The notes: generated by a model from the sequence alone, not told the origin. A DNA stretch of 42,216 bases from Clostridia bacterium (GCA_014804995.1 JAAUYS010000167.1:1-42216), one strand, 5' to 3'; shown: positions 1,747-32,357, numbered from the stretch's first letter. Numbers and translations: made by a program.

Positions 1747-2703
1747 ATGGCGACTTATGTGAATTATGACGCGGGGAAGTTGTTTGCTGGGAAGGCGAGT
1801 GGCAATCTGATTGCTGGATATGACCAAGCTACAGAAGACGTGCCGCCATTGCGCAGGGACTACATCCCGCAGGAGTGGGTGGCGCGTGACCTGATTCCGC
1901 AGCTTATTAATTATAATGAGCCGATATGGATTTCAGGCCCTACGGGTTGTGGCAAGACTCTTGGTGTGAAGTGGGTGGCGGCCAGGCTCCGCTATCCCGT
2001 TTTTGAAATCACGGCCACGCCTGACATGTCCGCGTCTGACCTGTTCGGACATATCGGTCTGGAGAACGGCGAGACCGTCTGGGTTGACGGCGCGCTGGCT
2101 TGTGCGATGAAGCAAGGCGGCATATTCCTGCTGAATGAGATAGACTATTTGCAGCCCTCTCTTGCGGCTGGACTTAATACTGTCCTTGATGGCAGCCCAT
2201 TGCGGATACCAGATACAGGGGAGGTGATAGTTCCGGAGCCTGGGTTTAAGTTTATCGCCACGGCCAATACAAATGGCAATGGTGATATTTCTGGTCTGTA
2301 TGTGGGCACAAATGCGCAGAACATGGCGTTTGTGAATCGTTTTATTAATATCAGTGCAAGTTATGTCAATGAGAAACAGGAGATGGCATTTCTCATAAAG
2401 GCATATCCGAATCTTGACAAGACCATAATCTCGTATATGGTGAAGCTGGCTGGGCTTACACGAAAGGCATTGGCTGGAGAGAAAATCTCAAGCGACTATT
2501 CAGACATAACGCAGGAGCTGACCACTGCCATAAGCACGAGGTCGCTTATGCGCTGGGCGAAACAGATTGAGATATATAAGCCGCTTGCGAAAGCTGGCAT
2601 CAACGTGGTGGAGTACGCGCTTGAGAGGTCGGTGACGACAGACAGCGCGAGCATGTCGGTGTTGAAGGCGCTTTTGCAGAGGGTGGCGGGGAGTACGAAA
2701 TGA
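1747..2703 (+). CDS. MoxR/CbbQ-like AAA+ ATPase
   Basis: 318 residues; ATG 1747 follows AAAAGGAGA. Walker A is GPTGCGKT at residues 64-71, Walker B is GGIFLLNEID at about 124-133, sensor 1 lies in FIATANTNGNGD at about 169-180, and a VNRF motif near 196 fits the arginine-finger region. The DMSASDLFGH segment after Walker A is typical of the MoxR/CbbQ/CobS branch. These are ring ATPases that remodel client proteins or drive metal insertion, normally together with a VWA-domain partner, and such a partner is encoded at 3932-5584. Client unknown. It overlaps the next small gene through ATGA. Confidence 0.9.
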   Translation: MATYVNYDAGKLFAGKASGNLIAGYDQATEDVPPLRRDYIPQEWVARDLIPQLINYNEPIWISGPTGCGKTLGVKWVAARLRYPVFEITATPDMSASDLFGHIGLENGETVWVDGALACAMKQGGIFLLNEIDYLQPSLAAGLNTVLDGSPLRIPDTGEVIVPEPGFKFIATANTNGNGDISGLYVGTNAQNMAFVNRFINISASYVNEKQEMAFLIKAYPNLDKTIISYMVKLAGLTRKALAGEKISSDYSDITQELTTAISTRSLMRWAKQIEIYKPLAKAGINVVEYALERSVTTDSASMSVLKALLQRVAGSTK

Positions 2704-2834
2704 GATTTCATTCAAGAAGATTTACAAAGTTTTGCAAGACCACCCAGAAGGTGCATAAATGGGTGGAGATTGACGCCGACTACTGGTGGGATATTCATGC
2801 CGCATGGTGGCGTCTGGTATTTGTAGGTAAGTGA
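2700..2834 (+). CDS. small basic tryptophan-rich protein, 44 aa
   Basis: ATG 2700 overlaps the AAA+ stop in the arrangement ATGA, and GGGGAG upstream serves as ribosome site. It has 44 residues: a very basic first half (MRFHSRRFTKFCKTTQKVHKW) and a second half with WW twice (DADYWWDIHAAWWRL). No known family. The tight coupling to the ATPase and the position inside the AAA+/DUF3150/VWA set suggest an accessory role in that machine, but this is inference from position only. Confidence 0.5.
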   Translation: MRFHSRRFTKFCKTTQKVHKWVEIDADYWWDIHAAWWRLVFVGK

Positions 2835-2861
2835 ACAATCTAACAGAATGGAGAAAAGAAA

Positions 2862-3881
2862 ATGGCGGACCAGAATGTTGTATCTAACGGTATTTTTGTT
2901 ATTCCTAATATTACTATTTGGACAGGCAAGGCCACGCTCAAGCGCGAGGAGTTGCCTGTTGACCCTGACAAGCTGCCCCCGGATGACGTGACCAAGAGTT
3001 TCGGTAGCAAGGCGATATATGACAAGGACAAGCTGCGTCCGTTCCTTGCTATAAAGTCCAGGATGCGGACGCTTATGATGAGCAAGTGCATGCCGTTCAT
3101 AGGTGGCTACATGTGTGGCGAGGACCAGCTTCAGGATGTGGAGGCTGGGCTTGATGCCTTGCGCAATGAGTTTTATAATGAGGTAACAAAACTGGAGGGA
3201 GAATATCAGGCCGTTTGTGATGAGTGGCTTGATGAGCATAAGGACTGGGCGCATATAATGCAGCCTGCCATGCCCAGTCCGCATGAGATAGGGAGCAGGT
3301 TTGTCTTTGGCTGGGACACTGTGAGAATCTCGCCAGTGGGAGATGCGACAGAGAAAAAACTGGACTCTCTCGTTGACGAGTCGGTGGCGAATATGGCGGA
3401 GGAGATTGCCGCCACGCGGGAGAGTGTCTATTCAAAGACCAGTAGCAAGAATACGGTGAAACCTCTTGAGCGTCTTATAGAAAGGTGCAAGGCGCTGACG
3501 TTCATGGGCAGTCCGCACCTGGCGAAACTTGCGGACGTGCTAACGGCGCTAACGACCCTGCCGAGCAGGGAGACTATCAACGCGGCGCTTGCGCCATTGG
3601 CTACGTCGGAGGGGTTGCAGTCATTTGTTGATAGTTTATCTGGCAATGAGTCAGGTCTTGAGGTGTGGAACAAGGCGGTGAGTCTCGCGCCACAGGATAG
3701 TGAGCCTGACAGTATTATATCTGAAGCGGAGCAGTTACTGTCAGGCACTGATGAGGAAGGAGTGCTAGAAGCCGAGCCTGTACCCGAGCCGGTCAAACCC
3801 GAGTCAGTCATTCCAATGGCGCCAGATGATGACAAGAAAGATGGTGATGGGGTATTTCTTGACTCATTCGGTTTATTCTAA
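2862..3881 (+). CDS. DUF3150-like protein of the AAA+/VWA module
   Basis: 339 residues; ATG 2862 follows AATGGAGA. The middle (about residues 60-190) is helical and includes MSKCMPFIGGYMC and LDALRNEFYNEVTKLEGEY, resembling the DUF3150 family, which I recall being encoded between a MoxR/CobS-like ATPase and a CobT-like VWA protein in phage operons. The C-terminus (about 270-325) is acidic and proline-rich, probably disordered. Gene order here (ATPase, this protein, VWA) supports the assignment and suggests an adaptor or substrate of the ATPase. Family call from memory of sequence pattern and context, not from a search. Confidence 0.6.
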   Translation: MADQNVVSNGIFVIPNITIWTGKATLKREELPVDPDKLPPDDVTKSFGSKAIYDKDKLRPFLAIKSRMRTLMMSKCMPFIGGYMCGEDQLQDVEAGLDALRNEFYNEVTKLEGEYQAVCDEWLDEHKDWAHIMQPAMPSPHEIGSRFVFGWDTVRISPVGDATEKKLDSLVDESVANMAEEIAATRESVYSKTSSKNTVKPLERLIERCKALTFMGSPHLAKLADVLTALTTLPSRETINAALAPLATSEGLQSFVDSLSGNESGLEVWNKAVSLAPQDSEPDSIISEAEQLLSGTDEEGVLEAEPVPEPVKPESVIPMAPDDDKKDGDGVFLDSFGLF

Positions 3882-3890
3882 TAACTAATA

Positions 3891-3912
3891 GGGCATGGGG
3901 AAACCCATGCCC
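3891..3912 (+). other. GAAA-tetraloop hairpin (copy 1)
   Basis: GGGCATGGG (3891-3899), loop GAAA (3900-3903), CCCATGCCC (3904-3912): a perfect 9-bp stem with a GNRA tetraloop. It lies just after the stop at 3881 and before AAAGGAGA of the VWA gene. No T-run. A near copy lies at 5791-5816. Confidence 0.65.
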
Positions 3913-3931
3913 ATAAATAAAGGAGAGTGTT

Positions 3932-5584
3932 ATGAAGGTTAGTGAGATTACAATGCTTACAAAGGCGTTGAGTGAAAAGAAAAATGTCCGTGCCATGTTG
4001 TCGTTTGATGGCAGGGCATATGCCGGTTTCAAGAGCGGAAAATATACAATCCATATCCCTGTACCGGATGACAATTCCCATAGTCAACTGGTTCATGGAT
4101 ATATTGACCATGAGACAGGGCATGTGAAGTGGACAGACTTTGATAAATTACAGGAATTATATAGAGATGAGCATACGCTTGCCAATATCTATGAGGATGA
4201 GATGGTGGAGCGCAAGATGGGAGAGATTTTCCCCGGGTGCAGGGAGAATCTGGAAGCTCTTGCGAAAAGCGTATTTGACTGCAAGATGCCGGTATACATA
4301 AAAGATACTGTAAAAAAATACAAAAGAAACCCGCGTATGGATATTATAGAAATTGTTGATTATGCTCTTTTATATATCAGACGGGCGCGTCTGGTGAAAG
4401 AGTTTCAGAGCCATGCCAATGCCATGAGAAAGGTTTTGTATGCGATATTCAAAGGCGAACGCAAGGAGCTTGACGAGCTTCTGGATGCGTCATGTGATTG
4501 CACAGAGGATAGTGTGCGTTGTGCCAGGGAGCTTTACGCTTTGATTTGTATGCGTTTTAATGAGGATGTTGCCCAGAATAATTCCCAGCAGAATACTGGA
4601 GAGGACGGCAATCAGGATAGTGATAACCAGGGAGATTCTGGGGAGAGTGGCGGCGCATCGGGAGAGACTGATAGTACTGGTGACAGTGAGCTGGATGAGG
4701 CATTGAACGAGGCGCAAGGTGAGGAACAACCAGGGTATGGTTTGGGAATTTTCTCAAGTGATATTGGCAACGCGTTGAGCAATAGGTTTTCAGAAGAATT
4801 GAAAACGTATGATACTGAGAAAAAAATGGAGATTGAGGAGTTCAATATAGGGAAGAATGATGAGTATAATGATTATTTAAAATGTGATTGGACTAGACAG
4901 AGTTCTGTAAAAGTCATAACGAATATGGCCGCAAGAATGGGGAGGACTCTTATGCCTCTCTTGCAGCATCATTCATATAGGCCAGCGCGTCCTGATTATG
5001 CTGGGACAAGTATTGCCAAAAGAAGATTATATAAAGTCAGGACTGGAAGCGCGGATGTCTTTATGACAAAGGGTGTGCAGCGGGATGTGAATGTTGAGCT
5101 GAAGATACTTTGTGATACATCCGGCTCAATGGATGGAGAACGGATTAAGATAGTGGCGCGGAGTCTGCTTGCGATATATCATGCGCTCAATGGTAGGCGT
5201 GGTATAGATATGCATGTGGCATATTTTGATGATGCGTATAAACCCGCTGATGACAGGGATTTAAGGAACTATGTGACAGCGGATGCTGAAGGTGGGACAT
5301 GCCTTGGCATGGCTATTGGAAGGATATTACAGGAGTACAAGACGGACAAGCGCAGGGTTCTCTTTGTGTTCACAGATGGGGAAACATGTGACAAGGGTAC
5401 TGCGCTGGACATGATAAAGAGTGCGGCGCGTAAGGGAGTGGAGTTATATGGCATAGGCATATGCACGGACATTCTTGATGATTATGATGGGCTTGTGCAT
5501 GAGAATGTGTATGAGCTTGACAAGGTGCCTGGCGTGCTTCAGAAGATGTTGCGCGAGGCGTTATTAAATAAAAAGGCGGCATAA
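3932..5584 (+). CDS. CobT-type VWA-domain protein with HExxH motif
   Basis: 550 residues; ATG 3932 follows AAAGGAGAG. The C-terminal third is a von Willebrand A domain with an intact MIDAS: DTSGSMDG at about 394-401, GGTCLGMA near 453 and FTDGETCDKG near 480. The N-terminus carries HETGH (residues 60-64), a HExxH pattern, followed by TDF and an EDEMVERKM segment. A similar HE..H / ED..VE signature occurs in CobT-like VWA proteins; whether it binds metal or cuts peptide bonds here is unknown. An acidic, low-complexity stretch (about 210-270, Asp/Gly/Glu/Gln) separates the two parts. Presumed partner of the AAA+ ATPase at 1747-2703. Confidence 0.85.
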   Translation: MKVSEITMLTKALSEKKNVRAMLSFDGRAYAGFKSGKYTIHIPVPDDNSHSQLVHGYIDHETGHVKWTDFDKLQELYRDEHTLANIYEDEMVERKMGEIFPGCRENLEALAKSVFDCKMPVYIKDTVKKYKRNPRMDIIEIVDYALLYIRRARLVKEFQSHANAMRKVLYAIFKGERKELDELLDASCDCTEDSVRCARELYALICMRFNEDVAQNNSQQNTGEDGNQDSDNQGDSGESGGASGETDSTGDSELDEALNEAQGEEQPGYGLGIFSSDIGNALSNRFSEELKTYDTEKKMEIEEFNIGKNDEYNDYLKCDWTRQSSVKVITNMAARMGRTLMPLLQHHSYRPARPDYAGTSIAKRRLYKVRTGSADVFMTKGVQRDVNVELKILCDTSGSMDGERIKIVARSLLAIYHALNGRRGIDMHVAYFDDAYKPADDRDLRNYVTADAEGGTCLGMAIGRILQEYKTDKRRVLFVFTDGETCDKGTALDMIKSAARKGVELYGIGICTDILDDYDGLVHENVYELDKVPGVLQKMLREALLNKKAA

Positions 5585-5790: not shown

Positions 5791-5816
5791 ATGGGCATGG
5801 GGAAACCTGTGCCCAT
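5791..5816 (+). other. GAAA-tetraloop hairpin (copy 2)
   Basis: ATGGGCATGGG (5791-5801), loop GAAA (5802-5805), CCTGTGCCCAT (5806-5816): 11 bp including two G-U wobbles. The left arm and loop are identical to copy 1 at 3891-3903. The right arm differs at two positions, both of which turn a Watson-Crick pair into a wobble in plus-strand RNA. It marks the end of the VWA unit. Confidence 0.6.
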
Positions 5817-10180: not shown

Positions 10181-10549
10181 ATGAAGATTGATGAAAAAAT
10201 TATGGAGAATTTGAGAAACACTTTACCATTAATGTTTCGCAGAACAGACATTGGCAAACTTACAGGAGGAATAATAAAGCCACAGCAGTTGATTTTTATT
10301 TCACAGAAGTATCCGGAGATTGCCCCTCATGCCAGAAGGTTTGGCAAGTTTGTGGTTTATGACAAAGACGAATTTATGCAATGGGTGGAGATGTATTATG
10401 GAAACTTTGAAGAGCGGGTTTACGACAACAAGTCTGGTGGATTTAGCAAAAAAATATGCAGAGGCCAGAGCGCAGAGGGAGGAACTGGACAGGCAAGCCA
10501 GGGAAGCGAAGGAGACAGAGGAGAGCCTGAAGGAATCTTTGATTTCTGA
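10181..10549 (+). CDS. putative HTH/excisionase-like DNA-binding protein
   Basis: ATG 10181 follows ATAGGAGGAAAC. Residues about 18-70 (MFRRTDIGKLTGGIIKPQQL, then RRFGKFVVYDKDEFMQWVE) look like a small winged-helix/AlpA-excisionase fold: a recognition helix pair, then a strand and a last helix. The remaining tail (GGTGQASQGSEGDRGEPEG) is low complexity and is the out-of-frame reading of the following gene, which starts inside this one. The frame stays open to 10549, but only the first 75 or so residues look constrained. Could regulate early transcription. Confidence 0.55.
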   Translation: MKIDEKIMENLRNTLPLMFRRTDIGKLTGGIIKPQQLIFISQKYPEIAPHARRFGKFVVYDKDEFMQWVEMYYGNFEERVYDNKSGGFSKKICRGQSAEGGTGQASQGSEGDRGEPEGIFDF

Positions 10550-15913: not shown

Positions 15914-16516
15914 TTAATCTAATCCACAAGTATCAAGAGCGAACTCAAAGGCCGCAGACTCTGTGATAAATTCCGAACACCTTGGGCCGAAGTCTATGTC
16001 AAAGCGGGCAAGCACACAACACTTGGGAGTCGGCATTTCAGGAAGCGGAGCTTGCGGCTTCGGTCTGTCGGTACATGACGGAGCGGTGAACTCCGGCGGC
16101 ACTCCCTTTGGAGGCTCCTTGTATGCTATGTCATAACCAGGCATGGCGTTGAAAGGCAGGCTGGCACTGGCAGGAGTGTAGCGAATCATCCCGTTATATC
16201 TGCCAAAGCACAAGCCTTTCCATCTTTCAGGAAGTATGAACACCACTCTCCCCTCCGTGTCCACTTCAAACGCTGGTATGCAGAAAGCGGGGAAGTCTTT
16301 GGGTGGTGGGTTGTTCAGGTCTATACCCGTGCGGACACCATAGAAACAGCCATAGGCTATCCATGGGGATAACGGCTCCTTGCACTGGCATGACTTGTTC
16401 TGTCCTGGCTGGATTATCAGTTGCAAATGCTCCCAGTCCTGCATATATGTCTGGGTAGGCCAGTGTTTGAGCTTGAACGCCAATCTGGATATATCCTCGG
16501 TTATCCTTATAATCAT
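15914..16516 (-). CDS. hypothetical proline/cysteine-rich protein, 200 aa
   Basis: Start chosen at ATG 16516, which overlaps the stop of the upstream gene (ATGA) and follows GGGAGAG; a longer frame from 16534 is less likely. The sequence begins MIIRITEDISRLAFKLKHW, has CQCKEP, a proline-rich section (about 140-165, PPKGVPPEF and PKPQAPLPEMPTP), and ends CCVLARFDIDFGPRCSEF. No family recognised. By place (right after the giant virion protein) it may be a minor virion or lysis-related protein. No enzymatic motif visible. Confidence 0.7.
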   Translation of the reverse strand: MIIRITEDISRLAFKLKHWPTQTYMQDWEHLQLIIQPGQNKSCQCKEPLSPWIAYGCFYGVRTGIDLNNPPPKDFPAFCIPAFEVDTEGRVVFILPERWKGLCFGRYNGMIRYTPASASLPFNAMPGYDIAYKEPPKGVPPEFTAPSCTDRPKPQAPLPEMPTPKCCVLARFDIDFGPRCSEFITESAAFEFALDTCGLD

Positions 16517-19500
16517 GGCCTCTCCCTTCCCCATGTTGAATTATTGAGAAATCTATCATACTGGGTGGTGGCTTTGTTATCAAATTTCAAAAACTCATCC
16601 CGTATCTGGTCAGCGTTCTCCATATTCATCCATGTGTCTTTATAGTTTGTATTGAAGTCTGAACTCAACTTTGTAAGCTCCCTGTCTGTGCTTCTCATAA
16701 GCTCATAGTCCGCGATTTCTTCTGGAGTGAACTCTCCAGATTCGGAAAGAACCCTCTCCCTGTAAGCTCTGGCTTCCTCTGGCTTGCCCATATTATCCTT
16801 TGAAGTAACTTTGAGTCCAAGCCTCTTTATCTTGTCCTCCACCTGTCGCTTGTAGTTAAAGTAAAGGGACTGGGAATTGTTACGGACCTTGCCGTATAGC
16901 ATTGAGCCGCCAAGAGCCTGTAGCCACGGTCCCATATCATCCGCTGCGGATGGTCTTGAGGCGCCTTTTCTTGGATAGTCTGGGTCGGTCAGACTGAAAG
17001 CCGAATCAAGAGTCGCCGACACCAGTTTCATAGGCCCGACAAAATAACTCTTGGCAAGATACTGATACTGTTCGGGAGCCGCGTCAAGACCGAAATGTCG
17101 CATGAAGTACCTTGCCGTATTATGCCAGAAGACGTCAGTGCTTGTGCGTCCGGAGTCCGCAAGAGCTTTGTCGCCGCGCCTGTCATTGACTATGCTGCTT
17201 CCGAAATAGTTTGTGTTTGTCGCCACTTCCATAAATGGCTTTATCACATCCGGCGTTACAAGCTGGGCTATGAACTGTGAAGGCTTCGTTGAGAAATTAT
17301 ACTGCGGAAGCGAAGTGGGCACTACGTCTTTCGCCACTGTCAGCATAAGTTCCACTCCGAAATCCTCTGGTTGCATAAGCCCACGCGATACCCTGTCTAT
17401 GCCGAGGGCGAGTGCCGCCGCGAGGCGTGGCGGTCCGAATCCGTTAGGGAGCTTCCAGTAACTGCCGTCATTATCATCAGTGGGTATGGGGATAAATCCA
17501 ACCGCGTCCCTGAATTTCAAATTATCAAAGTATGACTTCCCATTCTCATCATATCCCATAGCCTCTCTTGCTACAGAATAAAGAGCGCCAAAGGCCATAG
17601 CTCCGCCAAGAACTCCAAGCCAGCCATTCTTTCCCTGTTTGAATATATCACCGGCATTTCTTGCTCCAAAGCCAAGAGTGCGTCCAAGCGCGCGGGCTGA
17701 CTGCACTGTCGGTACGACAAAAGGCGCAGCTATACGGAGATAGGGAGTAAGCGTGCCCTGTTGCCTCATATTGATAAGCTCAAGCGTGGCCTCGGCAGCT
17801 TGCGCGGGCGAGAGTCCCTTTTCCCGCAGGGTAACATACTGGTTGAATCCCCCCAGATTTTGCAGATAGTCATTCCAGGCATCCAGTTTGCGTAATACTA
17901 CATCTTTGCCTCGGCCAAGAGTGTTGAGATATTTGTGCATTGACTCATCAATATTGAGCTTCCTTGCAATATCCTCTGCTATCCCCTCTCTCTGCCTGTA
18001 AAGATTATCGGGAGAAAAGTTCTTCTTGTCAGTACCAGGGATAAATTTCTGGAATACCCCTTGCCGTTGGAACTCATCCCACATCTGGGCCGCCACTGAA
18101 TCTGGCTCGGCGCGTCCACTCATGGCGTCAAAAAGCATCCTGGCTGCGCGGGCTGTGTTCCTTGTGTATGCTCCTATAACGCTTGTGCCCTTGAGAGTTT
18201 TCCCATCCTCTGTGTAATAGGTGCGGTTTATCATGTGAAAGACTCTTTCAAGTCCATCACGGAAGCCGCCAATGGGCGCGAAGAATGGGGAGAACCTGGT
18301 GAATAGCTGACCATGCCAGCCAGATAATGTGCCTAGCATCTCAACTGGCTTTGTATTCTTTCTGTAGTTGCTTGAGAGCGCATCATTCAGCATGTCGCCT
18401 GTAATGCCATTCTTGCTGTAGGATGAGTCAAAATAAATAAATCGGCGTTCAAGAATTTGCCTGCCGTTTTTGTCTGTGATTGGCATATCGGCGACTATGC
18501 CGCCAGCGTTCATTATCTTTTCTGCCTTGCGGGACTCATCAAAACTGCCATGTCTGCGCCAACGCCATAGCTCATCATAAGACACGGAACGAAGTCCGGC
18601 ATCTTCTGGTGTGTTCTTTTTCGCCCTGCCCTCAATCTTCAATCTCTTTGCTAACTGTCCCATTGAGAGGGAGTAATCCCTCATGCCTAGCTCAAGAGCG
18701 GTGCGCGCAGAATAAAATTGCAGGGAGCGCCATGAAGACTCTGGTCTGACATCTGCCATACCATCACGGGAATAGTAGCTACCAGGATTATATGCCCTGG
18801 CATCATTTATAGCTCCATCCCTGTTTTGCGCCGCTGAAAATAATGGTACATACTTTCCGAACTCTGGGAAACTTCTTGCTTCTTCAGGAGTGAGAGTTCC
18901 ATTTCTGGCTCTTTCATCATTCAGGAATGGAAACTCCTGTCTTAACTCCTCTGTCCATGCTTCCACTGTTGGAGCGTCAACTTTATATTTATTCAGTATG
19001 TCTTGCATTACGATTCTGGCTTCCGCATTGGTATAGCCTACTGTAACAAGACCTTCTGGCCTATCTGGGTTTTCAAGATTGGCTATAAGCTCATCTCTTT
19101 GTCTTATTAGCTTTCCTCTTTCAGAATCTATCTGCCTCATAAGTGCATCTGTTTCTGGGGTCAGTCCCTTGGAAGCGCGGAGGTTGTATTCCTGATTCAG
19201 GTCGCCAATATTTTTATCCCACTTTCTGATTAGTTCGGCATTACCTTCAGGTACATGTTCACAATTTGCGTATATGCCAAAGTCGTATGCTATTTCATCT
19301 GTGCTATATACACTCTTTTTACTTAAAGGTATCAGCTTTTGTTCCAGTGCTTTCTGACGTTTGACATATACGTTCAAAAGGCCTGCTATATTATTACGCA
19401 TCTGATTTTTTTGCCGAGTCAACACCTGCTCATATGGCTGAAGCTCTGGATTCTGGGCTTCACCCATAACCCATTTGTCAAAGACCGCAGTATTGTCAGC

Positions 19501-19884
19501 GAACCATGTGTCAAGTTTGTTTATGATATCATACCATAACCCCACATCTCCAGCGTTCAATCCATTTATTGCTCTGATAGCGTTGTCCGCGGCTTCTATC
19601 CTAGCCTGCTTCCCCTGCTTGGCTGTTTCATATAGAAGACTTTTAGATATGGCGTTTGCGGTCCTCTCATCTCCCGAAGTGGCGAACTCCGCCGTGGGCG
19701 TTTCACTCATGGCCGCAGTTTCAAGAGCGGACTCTGCTGTTTCTCTATTTACGGCCTCATTATGTTCACTCAATACTTCCCTTGTATTATAGTTGGTCTG
19801 CCACGGACCGAAGCCGCCTCTGCCATTGCCCATATTATGAGCTGCGCCAGTATATATTTCACTTTCAGTGCTACATTCAGCCAT
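16513..19884 (-). CDS. giant internal virion (ejection-type) protein, LPD38-like C-terminus
   Basis: About 1123 residues from ATG 19884, which overlaps the upstream stop as TAATG; a frame extension to 19902 is unlikely. The N-terminal 600 residues are helical with coiled-coil character. Around residues 716-965 the sequence (PFVVPTVQSARALGRTLG, GWLGVLGGAMAFGALYSVA, FGPPRLAAALALGIDRV, MLTVAKDVVPTSLP) resembles the polyvalent-protein associated domain LPD38 found in large phage virion proteins delivered with DNA. A hydrophobic stretch in the middle fits membrane insertion during ejection. Family call from pattern recall. It pairs with the similarly large protein at 19884-22958. Confidence 0.7.
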   Translation of the reverse strand: MAECSTESEIYTGAAHNMGNGRGGFGPWQTNYNTREVLSEHNEAVNRETAESALETAAMSETPTAEFATSGDERTANAISKSLLYETAKQGKQARIEAADNAIRAINGLNAGDVGLWYDIINKLDTWFADNTAVFDKWVMGEAQNPELQPYEQVLTRQKNQMRNNIAGLLNVYVKRQKALEQKLIPLSKKSVYSTDEIAYDFGIYANCEHVPEGNAELIRKWDKNIGDLNQEYNLRASKGLTPETDALMRQIDSERGKLIRQRDELIANLENPDRPEGLVTVGYTNAEARIVMQDILNKYKVDAPTVEAWTEELRQEFPFLNDERARNGTLTPEEARSFPEFGKYVPLFSAAQNRDGAINDARAYNPGSYYSRDGMADVRPESSWRSLQFYSARTALELGMRDYSLSMGQLAKRLKIEGRAKKNTPEDAGLRSVSYDELWRWRRHGSFDESRKAEKIMNAGGIVADMPITDKNGRQILERRFIYFDSSYSKNGITGDMLNDALSSNYRKNTKPVEMLGTLSGWHGQLFTRFSPFFAPIGGFRDGLERVFHMINRTYYTEDGKTLKGTSVIGAYTRNTARAARMLFDAMSGRAEPDSVAAQMWDEFQRQGVFQKFIPGTDKKNFSPDNLYRQREGIAEDIARKLNIDESMHKYLNTLGRGKDVVLRKLDAWNDYLQNLGGFNQYVTLREKGLSPAQAAEATLELINMRQQGTLTPYLRIAAPFVVPTVQSARALGRTLGFGARNAGDIFKQGKNGWLGVLGGAMAFGALYSVAREAMGYDENGKSYFDNLKFRDAVGFIPIPTDDNDGSYWKLPNGFGPPRLAAALALGIDRVSRGLMQPEDFGVELMLTVAKDVVPTSLPQYNFSTKPSQFIAQLVTPDVIKPFMEVATNTNYFGSSIVNDRRGDKALADSGRTSTDVFWHNTARYFMRHFGLDAAPEQYQYLAKSYFVGPMKLVSATLDSAFSLTDPDYPRKGASRPSAADDMGPWLQALGGSMLYGKVRNNSQSLYFNYKRQVEDKIKRLGLKVTSKDNMGKPEEARAYRERVLSESGEFTPEEIADYELMRSTDRELTKLSSDFNTNYKDTWMNMENADQIRDEFLKFDNKATTQYDRFLNNSTWGRERP

Positions 19885-22800
19885 TATAATCCCTGCCCAC
19901 AAATTTCCCTATTAGGATTTTCAAGATTGTCTTTCATATTCTCTGGTCTATTTTCCCTTGCTTCCACCATTTCGGTGTTATTCACATTCATCCCAATATC
20001 GTTTACCTTGTTCACTGTTTCTTCCGCAGATTTCACCTCGGCAGGGGGGATAACATCTTCCCATTTCATCCCAGCTTTTTCCAAAGCGTCATACTGCTGT
20101 TTTTCATTTGGTGATAGTTTCTTTCCTGTTGCGACTTTGGAAGCGATAGACACTACCTGTCCCCATGCCGCTTCGGGAGTCTTGGTATAGTCTGGTCTAG
20201 ACATGTTTTTATGTCCAGACTCATACAAGTTATTCAATACCTCCATTGCCTTGTCAGCAGTGAATGTGCTGGGTGTATCGGTAAGATTTTCAGTTTGCCC
20301 TATCAGATTATCAACGGTATCGTTTATTGGGTCTTCCCATTCTATTGACTGTTTGCCAGTATTTGCTGCATCTGTAATCCCGCCATCCCCTGCGCCTGTT
20401 TCAGATTTATTGCTTCCTGCGCCCTCACTTGATTCTGTACTGACATCGGTTGGGCTTCCAGCACTTGGTTCTCCGTTGGCTGTTTCGGCTCCAGCAGGTT
20501 TCTGTTCATTAATAATTCTTTCAATCGTTTCAACCGAGCGGGGATTCGGTGTTGTGGTCCCAACATTCCCTCCTGCTTCAACTGTTCCACCGCCTTCAGC
20601 AGGTCCTGTAGGAGATTCATTGGTAGCGGCTGGAGCAACTGGCGGGGTATCTGCTGCTGCTGTGCGATTAGTATTAGTATCTGTGATATTAGCTTCTCCT
20701 TCTCGGAGTTGTTCATCTCCTCCCAGTCTGGCAGTCTGTTCACTTCTGCTGCTCTCTGTATTGCGGGCCTCATTGTGTATTCTCCTATAGTTATTTACCC
20801 ACTGTTTCTGTTTGCCAGTAAGACGGGAGCTGTCCTCAAGCTGTGTGAAAAGAGTATCCGCCCCGCCTTCAGGCTTGGTGGCAATCAGTTCTTGTAACTT
20901 CCTCTGGAATGTGGCGCTGTCTTTTGTGATTTTCCTTAAAGTGTTTATCTCGCTATTGGTGAACTTGTCCTCTATTCTCGGGCCGAAATTTTGCGGACCA
21001 CGTATTGTAGGCTCTTCTATAAATGGTCTTACATATGCTGGCTTTGGCTCATTCGGGTCTAGTATTTTTTGTCTGAAAGCGCTTACCCAGTCCCATTGTC
21101 GTTTATTTAATCTCTTATCTCTTGCAAGGTTGGAAAGGAAAACATCTCTATTTTCTGGCGACACATAAGAAAGTGTTTTATATAGCTGGTTATCAAAATC
21201 TGGTTTATATCCCATGTTTTTATTTGGAACTTCTACTTCGCCATACAAAACATCCAACTCATCACTAACCTTGCGTTCCCCTCTTACACGGCCTACGGCG
21301 TCCAAATATGCGTCATCAGAATTATAAGCGCGTCTTGCATTGCCATACAACCTTTGACGGAATGGAGCATTTAATGAATTATTATATGCGTTCCTCGCTT
21401 CACGGTATGTATTGCCTAGCAATTCATTATAATATCTATTCTCAATGTCGGCGTTGTAATCTCTCCATGAATTATCAAGAGTGGTATTATATTCATTTCT
21501 GGCATTATTAAACTGATTCATCCCCTCCAATAATTGTGGCCTTTGCTCTCTGGCAGTCTGATTCGCCTCCCATACCTGCCGTCTGGCCGCCGAGCCTCTC
21601 GCTCCAAGAAACGCCATAGGAAGACCAATTATGGCTCCCTCCATTATAGCGTCCCCTAGTCCCTCTGTAAGCGGTATAGTCTGTCCTGTAGCCTGGTTAT
21701 AGGCATAGTTGCCAGCCACGTTGAACCCTGCGCCAAGAGTCGCGGCGTCTATGGCGTTAGGCGCAAGCCCCTTTATAACACCGCCAGTGTAAGTCTGCGC
21801 TGGAGCCGCCATCCTTGACAGTCTGCCAACATACGGAGCCGTCCTCGGTATCTGACGCAATGCCATAGCTGTTCCCGAAGCGGGACCAAGCGGTATGGCT
21901 CCAACCGCCGCGCCATACCAGCCAGCATTACTTTTATCTATGGCCTCAAGTTTTTCTGTATCTGATAAATTGCTCCCCTCAATCCTGCGGACATTGGAGT
22001 ATTCGCTCAATGGACCAGCTGCCAATGCTCCACCAGCCGCCGCGCCAGCGAATTGTCCTATGGTGCGTCCCAGATTGGCTCCAGCAGCAGCCCCTGCTGG
22101 GCCTGCCATAAACGCGCCCAAAGCTCCGCCAGCCAGACCGCTCAATCCCTGTGCCGCCAGTGTGCCGCCAAGTCCGGCAAGACTCTCACCGAATGTGATA
22201 CTAAGACCAGTAGGACGGAGAGCCATGCCAAGAGTGCTACGCCCTTCCTCCCTGCGTCTGTTCATCTCGTCCAGATAGGCGTTGTTGGCCGCCGCCTCCT
22301 GCGCCGCCTCATTGGACGCCCTTGCCGCCGCCTGTTTCTCCTGTGGTGTGGCTCTTATTGTGGAGATTGCTCTCCCAAGGTCGGTAAATCCGCGTCTTAC
22401 AGAATCCCACAAGGTATCAAGAGTGCTGGTATCCTTGATAGCTTTCTCTCGTGCCGCGATATTCTCCCGCATACCGGCAGTGCCGAGCATGACAGACTGC
22501 TGCGGGTCCATGCCAAGAGTGGGAGCGATAGCTTCCATATGCTCCCGCACCTGCTGCATACGCTCCCGCTTTCCTGGTACTGATAGACGTTCAAAACTGG
22601 GAGTCTTGTCAGTGCCGTTTATAAGGTCCTGATAGGTTTTATCCTTGGCAAGAACCCCACGGGCATATTCAGCTTTTATCTTGGCTTCCTCGGAGTCGCG
22701 TTCCTTTTGGGTAGTGCCCATAACCCATACTGTCTGACCATCAGGCAGTTTTACCCAGCGCCCTTTGCTTGGATTGCCAACCCCGCCAGTGCCTCCACCA

Positions 22801-30498: not shown

Positions 30499-31097
30499 GC
30501 AGAAACCACAATTTTTGCCGTGCCAGTATGAACCGCCGTGCCGCTGCAATTAGTGGCCGCGAACGATATGGTCGTTTCACTGGCCTTGGCTGGCGCTATG
30601 CCAGATAATATTATCGCACTCCCCTGCGCCTTTGCGCTTACCCATGCTGGCAAGTCGCCCACTCCGCATGTTACAGGAGGCGTCCCATCAAAAAGTATAG
30701 CCCCAGTCCACTGCTGCCCTGCCTTGGCCGGAGCAAGCTCAATGAAATGATTGCTTACTGGAGCGCATACGCAGTCGCCACTACAGCAATCATAGTTGCA
30801 CACAAGGTCTTTTATGGCTGCAAGTATAGCTGGTGATACCGATTTCACACAAGACCCCTCTGGATGCGTGACAGCCTTTGTTCCCTCAAGCCCTCGTTCA
30901 ACAACAAGAGTGCCGTGGTCATTGGTTACTTTCACCGCCTCCATATTGGTGTCATCCAGTATGGAGAGAAATGTGTAGCCATCCTCGCCAAGCAGTTTCA
31001 CAAGGTCAGACTCGGCAGACCTGCATAACGGCAGATAGTTATCTCCTGCCTGCATGACGGCAGACGTATAAGCCGAGAAATATTCGCTAACCATCAT
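30495..31097 (-). CDS. virion/tail-appendage protein with cysteine cluster and Ig-like end, 200 aa
   Basis: ATG 31097 follows CAGGTGA and overlaps the collagen-like gene's end by 11 bases. The middle contains CNYDCCSGDCVCAP (five cysteines in 14 residues, about residues 99-112). The C-terminal part (about 115-200: TGAILFDGTPPVTC, GSAIILSGIAPAKASETTIS, GTAVHTGTAKIVVSA) has the repeating strand pattern of an Ig-like or putative-Ig (He_PIG-type) domain. Adjacent to the collagen-like gene, so probably a surface appendage component. No exact family known. The last codons contain the promoter-like TTGACA of the next cassette. Confidence 0.55.
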   Translation of the reverse strand: MMVSEYFSAYTSAVMQAGDNYLPLCRSAESDLVKLLGEDGYTFLSILDDTNMEAVKVTNDHGTLVVERGLEGTKAVTHPEGSCVKSVSPAILAAIKDLVCNYDCCSGDCVCAPVSNHFIELAPAKAGQQWTGAILFDGTPPVTCGVGDLPAWVSAKAQGSAIILSGIAPAKASETTISFAATNCSGTAVHTGTAKIVVSA

Positions 31098-31695
31098 GGC
31101 GGTTCACCTGTAATAGTCTGGCGTTTGTTATAATAAGAGCTTCCTCAAGTTTCGCTATCCGCTGCTCAAGACTCTTTACATACACTTCAGATGCGAATCC
31201 CTTGTGGCCGCTTCGTTCATAGTCCAGATTGAAAAGCGCGGCATGGTTGCTTGTGCCAGCCGGTCCAGCCGGCCCCTGCCGTCCCTCTCTGCCCTGCGCT
31301 CCTGGCACTCCCCTCGGCCCCTGGTCCCCTTTCGGTCCCACTGGCCCTTGTGGTCCTATCGGTCCCTGCGCTCCTGGCACTCCCTGCTTCCCTTGTGGAC
31401 CAACTGGACCCTCTGGGCCCTGCGGTCCCCTCTCTCCTTGCAGACCTGTTCTGCCTGTCGCTCCAGCCGGTCCCTGTATGCCCTGCGGTCCCCTCTCTCC
31501 CTGTGGTCCCTGCGGTCCCATAAGACCCGTGGCGCCCTGTATGCCCTGCGGTCCCCTTGTATATTCTCCCCATGAGATACCAAGAGGACTTGTGCTGTCG
31601 GCTACAAGAACCTGGCCGTCCTTGGCTCCAACTGGCAGTCCCAGAACTGGAGTGTATTCAGGATATGTGGAAGGACATTGCTTGTGAATAGCCAT
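31087..31695 (-). CDS. collagen-like (GXY) tail/fibre protein
   Basis: 202 residues from ATG 31695 (AAGGTGATGTG upstream); a GTG three bases earlier is possible. Residues 48-149 are 34 consecutive G-X-Y triplets (such as [27 protein letters not shown]), a collagen-like trimeric rod. They are preceded by a 47-residue head and followed by a short coiled coil ([20 protein letters not shown]) that would trimerise it. Phage proteins of this sort are fibre stalks. The proline/glutamine-rich GXY and the charged triplets resemble bacterial collagen. An in-frame DNA repeat lies inside. Confidence 0.9.
31249..31554 (-). repeat. collagen GXY triplet repeat with a 23-bp direct repeat
   Basis: The coding DNA for 34 GXY triplets. 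A 23-base segment (31472-31494) recurs exactly at 31535-31557, 63 bases apart, equal to 21 codons or seven triplets. This in-frame spacing favours expansion and contraction of the rod length by slippage or recombination. Confidence 0.8.
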
Positions 31696-32357
31696 CACAT
31701 CACCTTGCCGAATTTCATTTTTATTGAGCCACGCATAAGATTGGTATGCGACATGACCGCTTCCTCGCGAAGCATCTTGTTATACTCATTATAAAGTTCA
31801 GCTCCCAGACGCAGATTGGTCCAGTCCCTGCCGGTTATCAGCATGATATTGGCCCTGGTTCCCATGAGCAGAATGGAATAATATCTTGTCTTGTATATGG
31901 CCGGAAGCTCGCAGACATCCCTCTCCGGCACTACAGCGATAGTCACTACAGCGGAGTCGGCACATCCACAGTCTGTTTCTATATGAAGCTCACCCTCAAA
32001 CTCATCATACCATACACCCTTTCTATGGCATGAACTACCAACAGGAGCTTCAAAATATCTTGGTGGAATCCTCTCACCACAATGCTCATGGAGTCTTACA
32101 CCCAGTATGGCCCACAATTTCAGTCCATCCGCAGACGCCAGACTGTATGTGCTGACTCCTGGCTCAAGCTCAATGTCAACGCGACGGCGAAGGAGATTGC
32201 CTTTCTCCGCCATGTCAACAGCGGTCTTTATAAGATAGTGGGCAAAAAGCTGGGGAGGAAGCTGTTGATGGGTTTTAGTCTGAAACTCAAATTTCAGCTC
32301 ATCATAAAAATCACTGACCGGAACGGTCGGGAACTTCTCGTACACTATCCTTGCCAT
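31695..32357 (-). CDS. head-tail adaptor/connector-like protein A, 220 aa
   Basis: ATG 32357 has only GGAAATGAAG upstream and lies 46 bases inside the previous gene. The product shows YLIKTAVDMAEKGNLLRRRVDIELEPGVSTYSL and, near the end, YYSILLMGTRANIMLITGRDWTNLRLGAELYNEYNKML, the helical 'LP..Y....L.GA...L....W......A..Y...YN..L' scheme of phage adaptor proteins (gp6/DUF6682 type). The cysteines CHRKG and CGCADS are unusual. A related protein is encoded just upstream (32311-33024). Role: ring between portal and tail. Confidence 0.55.
   Translation of the reverse strand: MARIVYEKFPTVPVSDFYDELKFEFQTKTHQQLPPQLFAHYLIKTAVDMAEKGNLLRRRVDIELEPGVSTYSLASADGLKLWAILGVRLHEHCGERIPPRYFEAPVGSSCHRKGVWYDEFEGELHIETDCGCADSAVVTIAVVPERDVCELPAIYKTRYYSILLMGTRANIMLITGRDWTNLRLGAELYNEYNKMLREEAVMSHTNLMRGSIKMKFGKVM

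Follow-up and report, generated by a model that had tools for sequence, protein, structure and literature searches.

A predicted AAA+/DUF3150/VWA module with a conserved peptidase-type motif is shared by phages and conjugative plasmids

Three neighbouring genes on a tailed-phage contig (contig C167 of bin G000; its 42,216 nt are the whole stretch of DNA that was analysed and are called the window below) code for an AAA+ ATPase, a DUF3150 protein and a VWA protein with a conserved HExxH motif. We see an even chance that these proteins work together as a protein-remodelling machine that is driven by ATP and has a metal-dependent head of peptidase type, whose clients would sit on the element's own DNA. 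The pair of AAA+ ATPase and VWA-metallopeptidase is already known; new here are the DUF3150 variant, the spread over plasmids and phages, the aromatic tail and the finding that CobT has apparently lost the site.

The region 1747-5584 holds four ORFs on the + strand, coding for the AAA+ ATPase (1747-2703, 318 aa), a W-rich peptide of 44 aa (2700-2834), the DUF3150 protein (2862-3881, 339 aa) and the VWA protein (3932-5584, 550 aa); all of them lie exactly where the original prediction had placed them. The 44-aa ORF indeed overlaps the AAA stop codon via ATGA as had been described; however, its proposed place in the module did not hold. Profile searches with it gave no family match, a counterpart is absent from every related locus fetched, and in the nearest phage-borne modules (L013 and L015) the AAA and DUF3150 genes stand almost back to back, with no small ORF between them in L013. 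It was rejected as a conserved component for lack of any counterpart and probably lies outside the conserved module, and its own status is uncertain. The assignment of the four genes to one transcript is a weaker point of the prediction, because a hairpin is located between DUF3150 and VWA, upstream of the VWA gene (3891-3912, +; 9-bp perfect stem, GGGCATGGG-GAAA-CCCATGCCC; RNA fold z = -3.4, no T-run on the + strand). A second copy at 5793-5814 (+) has two changed bases with the pairing kept (G-U); for the first hairpin, no match is expected by chance. The VWA gene and the next small ORF stand between the two hairpins, which are near-identical (GGGCATGGGGAAACCCATGCCC), and each hairpin precedes a gene start.

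The left, + strand part of the window continues with a PDDEXK exonuclease (phrog_69), an SNF2-type helicase and a primase/helicase-like protein, and a 122-aa ORF with the acidic-aromatic end EPEGIFDF (10181-10549, +) is found within this replication cluster. On the - strand we observed a 1129-aa protein with an LPD38 polyvalent-protein domain (16513-19902, E=1e-14) and a collagen-like protein with many G-x-y repeats (31087-31698).

According to its sequence, the first protein is an AAA+ ATPase of the MoxR/CbbQ/CobS class. It matched the Pfam families AAA_5 (3e-24) and CbbQ_C (8e-6) and carries the features that characterise the MoxR class, i.e. Walker A (GPTGCGKT, residues 64-71), Walker B (about 126-133, with E131 and D133), sensor and arginine motifs (N174, R198 and S263-T264-R265) and a CbbQ_C-type C-terminus. 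These motif residues are conserved, nearly all of them invariant, in the AAA alignment A3, and the relatives in the PDB are Midasin, CobS and NorQ. Pfam and alignment thus agree with the MoxR/CbbQ-like ATPase with intact Walker motifs that had been predicted.

The VWA protein (Pfam VWA, 8e-8) is laid out as an N-terminal zincin-like domain, a low-confidence linker at about residues 222-320 and a C-terminal VWA domain with the MIDAS residues D395-S397-S399, T456 and D482. The full MIDAS and the HETGH at residues 60-64 (codons 4109-4123, +, from the translation) had been noted before, and both are present and conserved. Among 59 homologues with 20-27% identity to the window protein, D395, S397, S399 and D482 were invariant, and the same was true for H60, E61, H64, E88, D89 and E93, with N85 kept in at least 90%; the viral homologues had been retrieved via a pattern containing HExxH and are biased for it, while NxxED was not used in the retrieval. 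The combination expected for a zincin, namely HExxH and a conserved candidate third ligand downstream (N85-x-x-E88-D89-x-x-x-E93, codons 4184-4210, +, from this alignment), was found across these homologues. Moreover, 11 out of 11 divergent homologues that BLAST found on plasmids, in phages and in a genomic island showed HExxH, followed by N-x-x-E-D-x-x-x-E or a sequence near it. In two sets that were not selected for the motif, HExxH is kept in 24 of 25 distinct VWA proteins encoded beside DUF3150 and in 7 of 8 VWA partners found through the phage AAA gene, the latter being those of Gordonia ScarletRaider, ICP2, P-SSM4, three further Kyanoviridae and a Klebsiella phage, with Nican01 as the exception. 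Free variation of the HExxH residues, which would have spoken against the prediction, was seen neither among the 59 homologues nor in the unselected sets, and judged from these alignments the motif is not a chance occurrence.

The AlphaFold (AF2) model of the VWA protein (pLDDT 80 on average, with block means of 91-97 for residues 51-110) begins with a helix at 3-14, three strands in 19-43, the HExxH helix at 48-67 and a helix at 78-99 that carries N85-E93. This predicted order of helices and strands fits that of zincins. Since the Foldseek search against the PDB matched the VWA domain alone, best with NorD and Midasin, the zincin assignment rests on the motif and the predicted order. No Pfam peptidase family matched the N-terminal domain convincingly, and the CobT family matched 58 of the 59 N-terminal domains.

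Parts of the site have been lost in some relatives. The VWA homologue of Pseudomonas phage Nican01 (L116, 3364-5445) kept the MIDAS and lost HExxH, that of Vibrio phage ICP2 (L113, 3898-5640) kept the MIDAS and HECYH and lost NxxED, and within the DUF3150-linked set L140 is without HExxH and L141 without NxxED, both likewise with the MIDAS kept; hence, proteolysis may be dispensable. Genuine CobT aligns with the N-terminal region, but it has no HExxH, and EA or EQ replaces ED. CobT therefore looks like a relative that lost the peptidase-type site.

The third component had been called DUF3150-like and proved to be a true DUF3150 protein (PF11348, E=5e-42, 144.4 bits against a gathering cut-off of 24.9). 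Residues of about 6-274 are structured in its AF2 model, and the tail 275-339 is disordered with a pLDDT below 50. The structure search returned no match, and the PDB sequence search none that was meaningful. The protein ends with ...DSFGLF, i.e. with an aromatic residue in the last position, and the same applies to 24 of 25 distinct DUF3150 members (C-terminal F, W or Y), compared to 78 of the 859 long ORFs in the fetched loci (9%) that served as background. In the same loci an aromatic C-terminus was also found in Exo (10/11) and in a third protein (6/6), counts which come from related plasmids, hence are not independent and are inflated by kinship, but only once among 24 AAA proteins and never among 23 VWA proteins. 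The aromatic end as a general trait of YqaJ-type exonucleases was rejected, since only 3 of 22 such enzymes outside the module have it (L171, from a genome that also has DUF3150, was kept apart from this tally). Several DUF3150 tails are acidic ahead of the aromatic residue (DDDGDYFF, YDDDEEEF) and resemble the tail of SSB (DDDIPF in L012). Because the DUF3150 tails are otherwise dissimilar and have little end sequence in common, the comparison suggests that the aromatic end is under constraint. In two SSB frames (L008, 6060-6590; L106, 3446-4042), a DDDIPF-like tip is followed by extra residues (DDDIPFMRLHHLAGG, DDDDIPFYYGHVG).

The adjacency of AAA and VWA is close to universal, as it was observed in 77 of 80 viral contigs and the other three are cut near the contig end. 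Together with the occurrence of VWA beside DUF3150, this excludes a lack of co-occurrence of the genes, which had been named as a point that would refute the prediction. DUF3150 is less common: it was found in the window, in L013 and L015, in Desulfovibrio and in several further genomes, was above its cut-off in 8 of 399 genomes in a sample of one phylum, and appears to mark a sub-lineage of the AAA/VWA pairs that includes MOBH conjugative plasmids (IncA, IncC). It is present in 1051 plasmid records, 952 of which are predicted to be conjugative. The original prediction of a phage-borne remodelling machine thus stands with regard to a MoxR/VWA system with zinc-protease-like sequence features; however, the module is not specific to phages. 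The phylogeny of 64 AAA proteins agrees with one common DUF3150-linked group, for which one change is needed, although the support of 52/90 is not firm; the AAA proteins of the window, L013 and L015 clustered together with good support (96/92). L013 (6440-10204) is a second, divergent module on contig C122 of the same bin, with the order AAA-DUF3150-VWA and 48%, 32% and 27% identity to the window for AAA, DUF3150 and VWA, respectively. Among 151 genomes of the family, DUF3150 was found only in this bin (84% complete, contamination 6.45%). Since no other genome of the family has it, the contigs C167 and C122 are probably mobile-element DNA and possibly misbinned. In the nearest phage, as judged by the portal protein (63% identity), the VWA gene is positioned in the same way with respect to helicase and primase; the contig of this phage breaks off within the VWA gene and does not cover the region where AAA and DUF3150 would be expected. 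Single-protein scans of viral contigs with VWA, DUF3150 and primase of the window revealed no relatives, and no pattern that could be used emerged from the alignments of viral contigs (A2) and of genome contigs (A1).

The module is found among genes of DNA metabolism. On plasmids it is accompanied by SSB, by RecT or Bet and by an exonuclease of the lambda type, and the commonest recognised neighbours on phage contigs are DNA polymerase, sigma factor, integrase, DNA-binding protein, ligase, primase and helicase. Such a neighbourhood speaks for the client only indirectly. In the window, a search with profiles built from the plasmid proteins detected no SSB, RecT/Bet or Exo of plasmid type, and it has no stretch that unites the three as in an IncC/SXT-type recombination operon. 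Furthermore, four Kyanoviridae have a gene annotated as 'peptidase' with HExxH, NxxED and a DxSxS motif near 'cobS' (L114, 2760-6855; L176, 3155-6837; L177, 3435-6885; L178, 1028-6849), both between the recombination endonuclease gp46/47 on one side and the sliding clamp gp45 and gp44 on the other. From their motifs, these two look like an AAA+/VWA-metallopeptidase pair in a replication-recombination cluster. Due to this resemblance, the cobalamin annotation of the cyanophage cobS, which the literature has counted among the cobalamin genes (PMC3037559), appears doubtful.

Regarding the mechanism, we infer complex formation, metal binding, proteolysis, the adaptor role of DUF3150 and the client as follows. 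In NorQ/NorD, the best-studied analogue, the VWA protein is located in the AAA+ ring, which is held by its C-terminus, and ATP drives a rotation of the VWA domain against the N-terminal one by way of a stretched linker (PMC13036017). The VWA protein of the window is laid out alike, with a zincin-like domain at its N-terminus. By analogy, the AAA+ protein would form a hexamer, one VWA protein would dock in the ring via its VWA domain, and ATP hydrolysis would rotate this domain against the N-terminal one, with the flexible linker connecting the two. The MIDAS metal could then grip an acidic group of the client, which would be brought to the zincin-like site (H60, E61, H64 and E88 or D89) and clipped there. 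DUF3150 may serve as the adaptor, with a mostly helical body and a disordered tail docking by its terminal aromatic residue, either on the AAA+ ring, like the NorD C-terminus on NorQ, or on an SSB-tail-binding site of the replication/recombination machinery. The client would most likely be a protein located on the DNA of the element itself while this is being replicated or recombined; we propose such a DNA-bound client rather than B12 or virions because the module is common to conjugative plasmids and sits among replication and recombination genes. In the literature searched, DUF3150 was not named, and neither biochemistry for the AAA/DUF3150/VWA family nor a functional study of the module in IncC/SXT was found.

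Other explanations have to be weighed. The proteins could be a remodelling chaperone whose metal head is structural or a metal-insertion site, and which inserts metal into an element-encoded enzyme or opens it. The closest solved relatives, CobS/CobT and NorQ/NorD, are metal-insertion machines, and the MIDAS without HExxH in Nican01 would be in line with such a role; but it is precisely the metal-insertion relative CobT that has neither HExxH nor ED, while 24 of the 25 unselected DUF3150-linked proteins have retained E61, a residue that serves zincins as catalytic base. We regard this explanation as unlikely but worth keeping in mind.

It is rather improbable that the machine serves host takeover or counter-defence by unfolding and cutting a host protein that would otherwise attack incoming DNA or stand in its way, such as a nuclease or nucleoid protein. 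The presence on mobile elements and the absence from the 150 other genomes of the bin's family would be expected in this case, and compared to the nearest phage the VWA protein is more diverged than the helicase (28% vs 51% identity). However, the family search of the window gave no convincing match to a defence family, and the plasmid module accompanies ssb, recT/bet and exo across diverse elements and not a changing cargo.

The original prediction stated that no client in phage infection had been described, which has to be corrected, as virion assembly had already been proposed. Iyer et al. (2021, PMC7824862) reported a MoxR-VWA-metallopeptidase pair in group 2.2 jumbo phages, in which AAA+ and VWA would fold or assemble structural proteins and the metallopeptidase would process them during maturation. 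The architecture corresponds to their description, they refer to a MoxR-VWA pair that the Acidianus two-tailed virus requires to assemble its tails, and the VWA protein of this virus was a weak structural match (rank 28) in our search. Nevertheless, the DUF3150 module also occurs on conjugative plasmids, which make no virions, the phage neighbours are replication genes without any virion family among the 25 commonest in viral contigs, and portal, major head and internal virion proteins of the window are encoded on the opposite (-) strand at its right, far away from the module. We therefore consider a role in virion assembly of this module improbable. Finally, cobalt chelatase subunits supplying B12, as many records are annotated, are hardly credible and cobaltochelatase membership was rejected, because the homology to CobS and CobT is only distant (87.9 bits against the cut-off of 558.55 for the CobS equivalog TIGR01650, 16.3 against 26.1 bits for CobT PF06213), CobN (PF02514) had no match in the 84% complete bin including the window, and genuine CobT is without the active-site motifs.

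In eukaryotes, SPRTN together with p97 is an AAA+/zincin system that clears proteins from DNA. If the preferred reading of a machine acting on DNA-bound clients is correct, one may speculate, with considerable reservation, that the module is a mobile-element counterpart of such systems, which is targeted by the aromatic tail common to DUF3150 and its recombination neighbours and clears away proteins, or trims them, on phage and plasmid DNA that is being replicated or recombined, with the cyanophage 'cobS' as part of the same kind. Genes that were annotated as cobalamin biosynthesis or left unassigned, and that occur in marine cyanophages as well as on major antibiotic-resistance plasmids, would thereby be united in one testable hypothesis, an ATP-driven, metal-dependent protein processing in DNA replication or recombination. 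The conserved aromatic C-terminus of DUF3150 offers a simple target for mutation.

Compared to known systems, the module shares homologous AAA+ and VWA proteins with the aerobic cobaltochelatase, and the N-terminal region of CobT aligns with the peptidase-like domain, but CobT lacks HExxH and ED and works with CobN. NorQ/NorD has the AAA+ ring and a VWA protein in which a flexible linker joins the N-terminal domain to the VWA domain with its MIDAS, and gave the best PDB fold match to the VWA model; in contrast, it inserts metal into a respiratory enzyme, the C-terminus of NorD itself docks on the ring, and there is no DUF3150. The jumbo phage pair, which was matched by description, also consists of a MoxR AAA+ gene beside a VWA gene with an N-terminal metallopeptidase domain, whereas the window module has DUF3150, occurs on conjugative plasmids as well and is surrounded by genes of DNA metabolism and not by virion genes. 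In the T4-like Kyanoviridae, a CobS-like AAA+ protein is likewise encoded near a protein with HExxH, NxxED and DxSxS, but no DUF3150 was seen, the VWA protein has 690-784 aa and other genes may intervene (pcyA in P-SSM4). The ssb-bet-exo stretch of IncA and IncC plasmids and related MOBH elements has AAA (32-34% identical), DUF3150 and VWA with the same motifs and the aromatic DUF3150 end; however, these plasmids carry SSB, RecT/Bet, Exo and sometimes a further protein inside the stretch, in place of which the window phage encodes a PDDEXK exonuclease, an SNF2-type helicase and a primase of its own.
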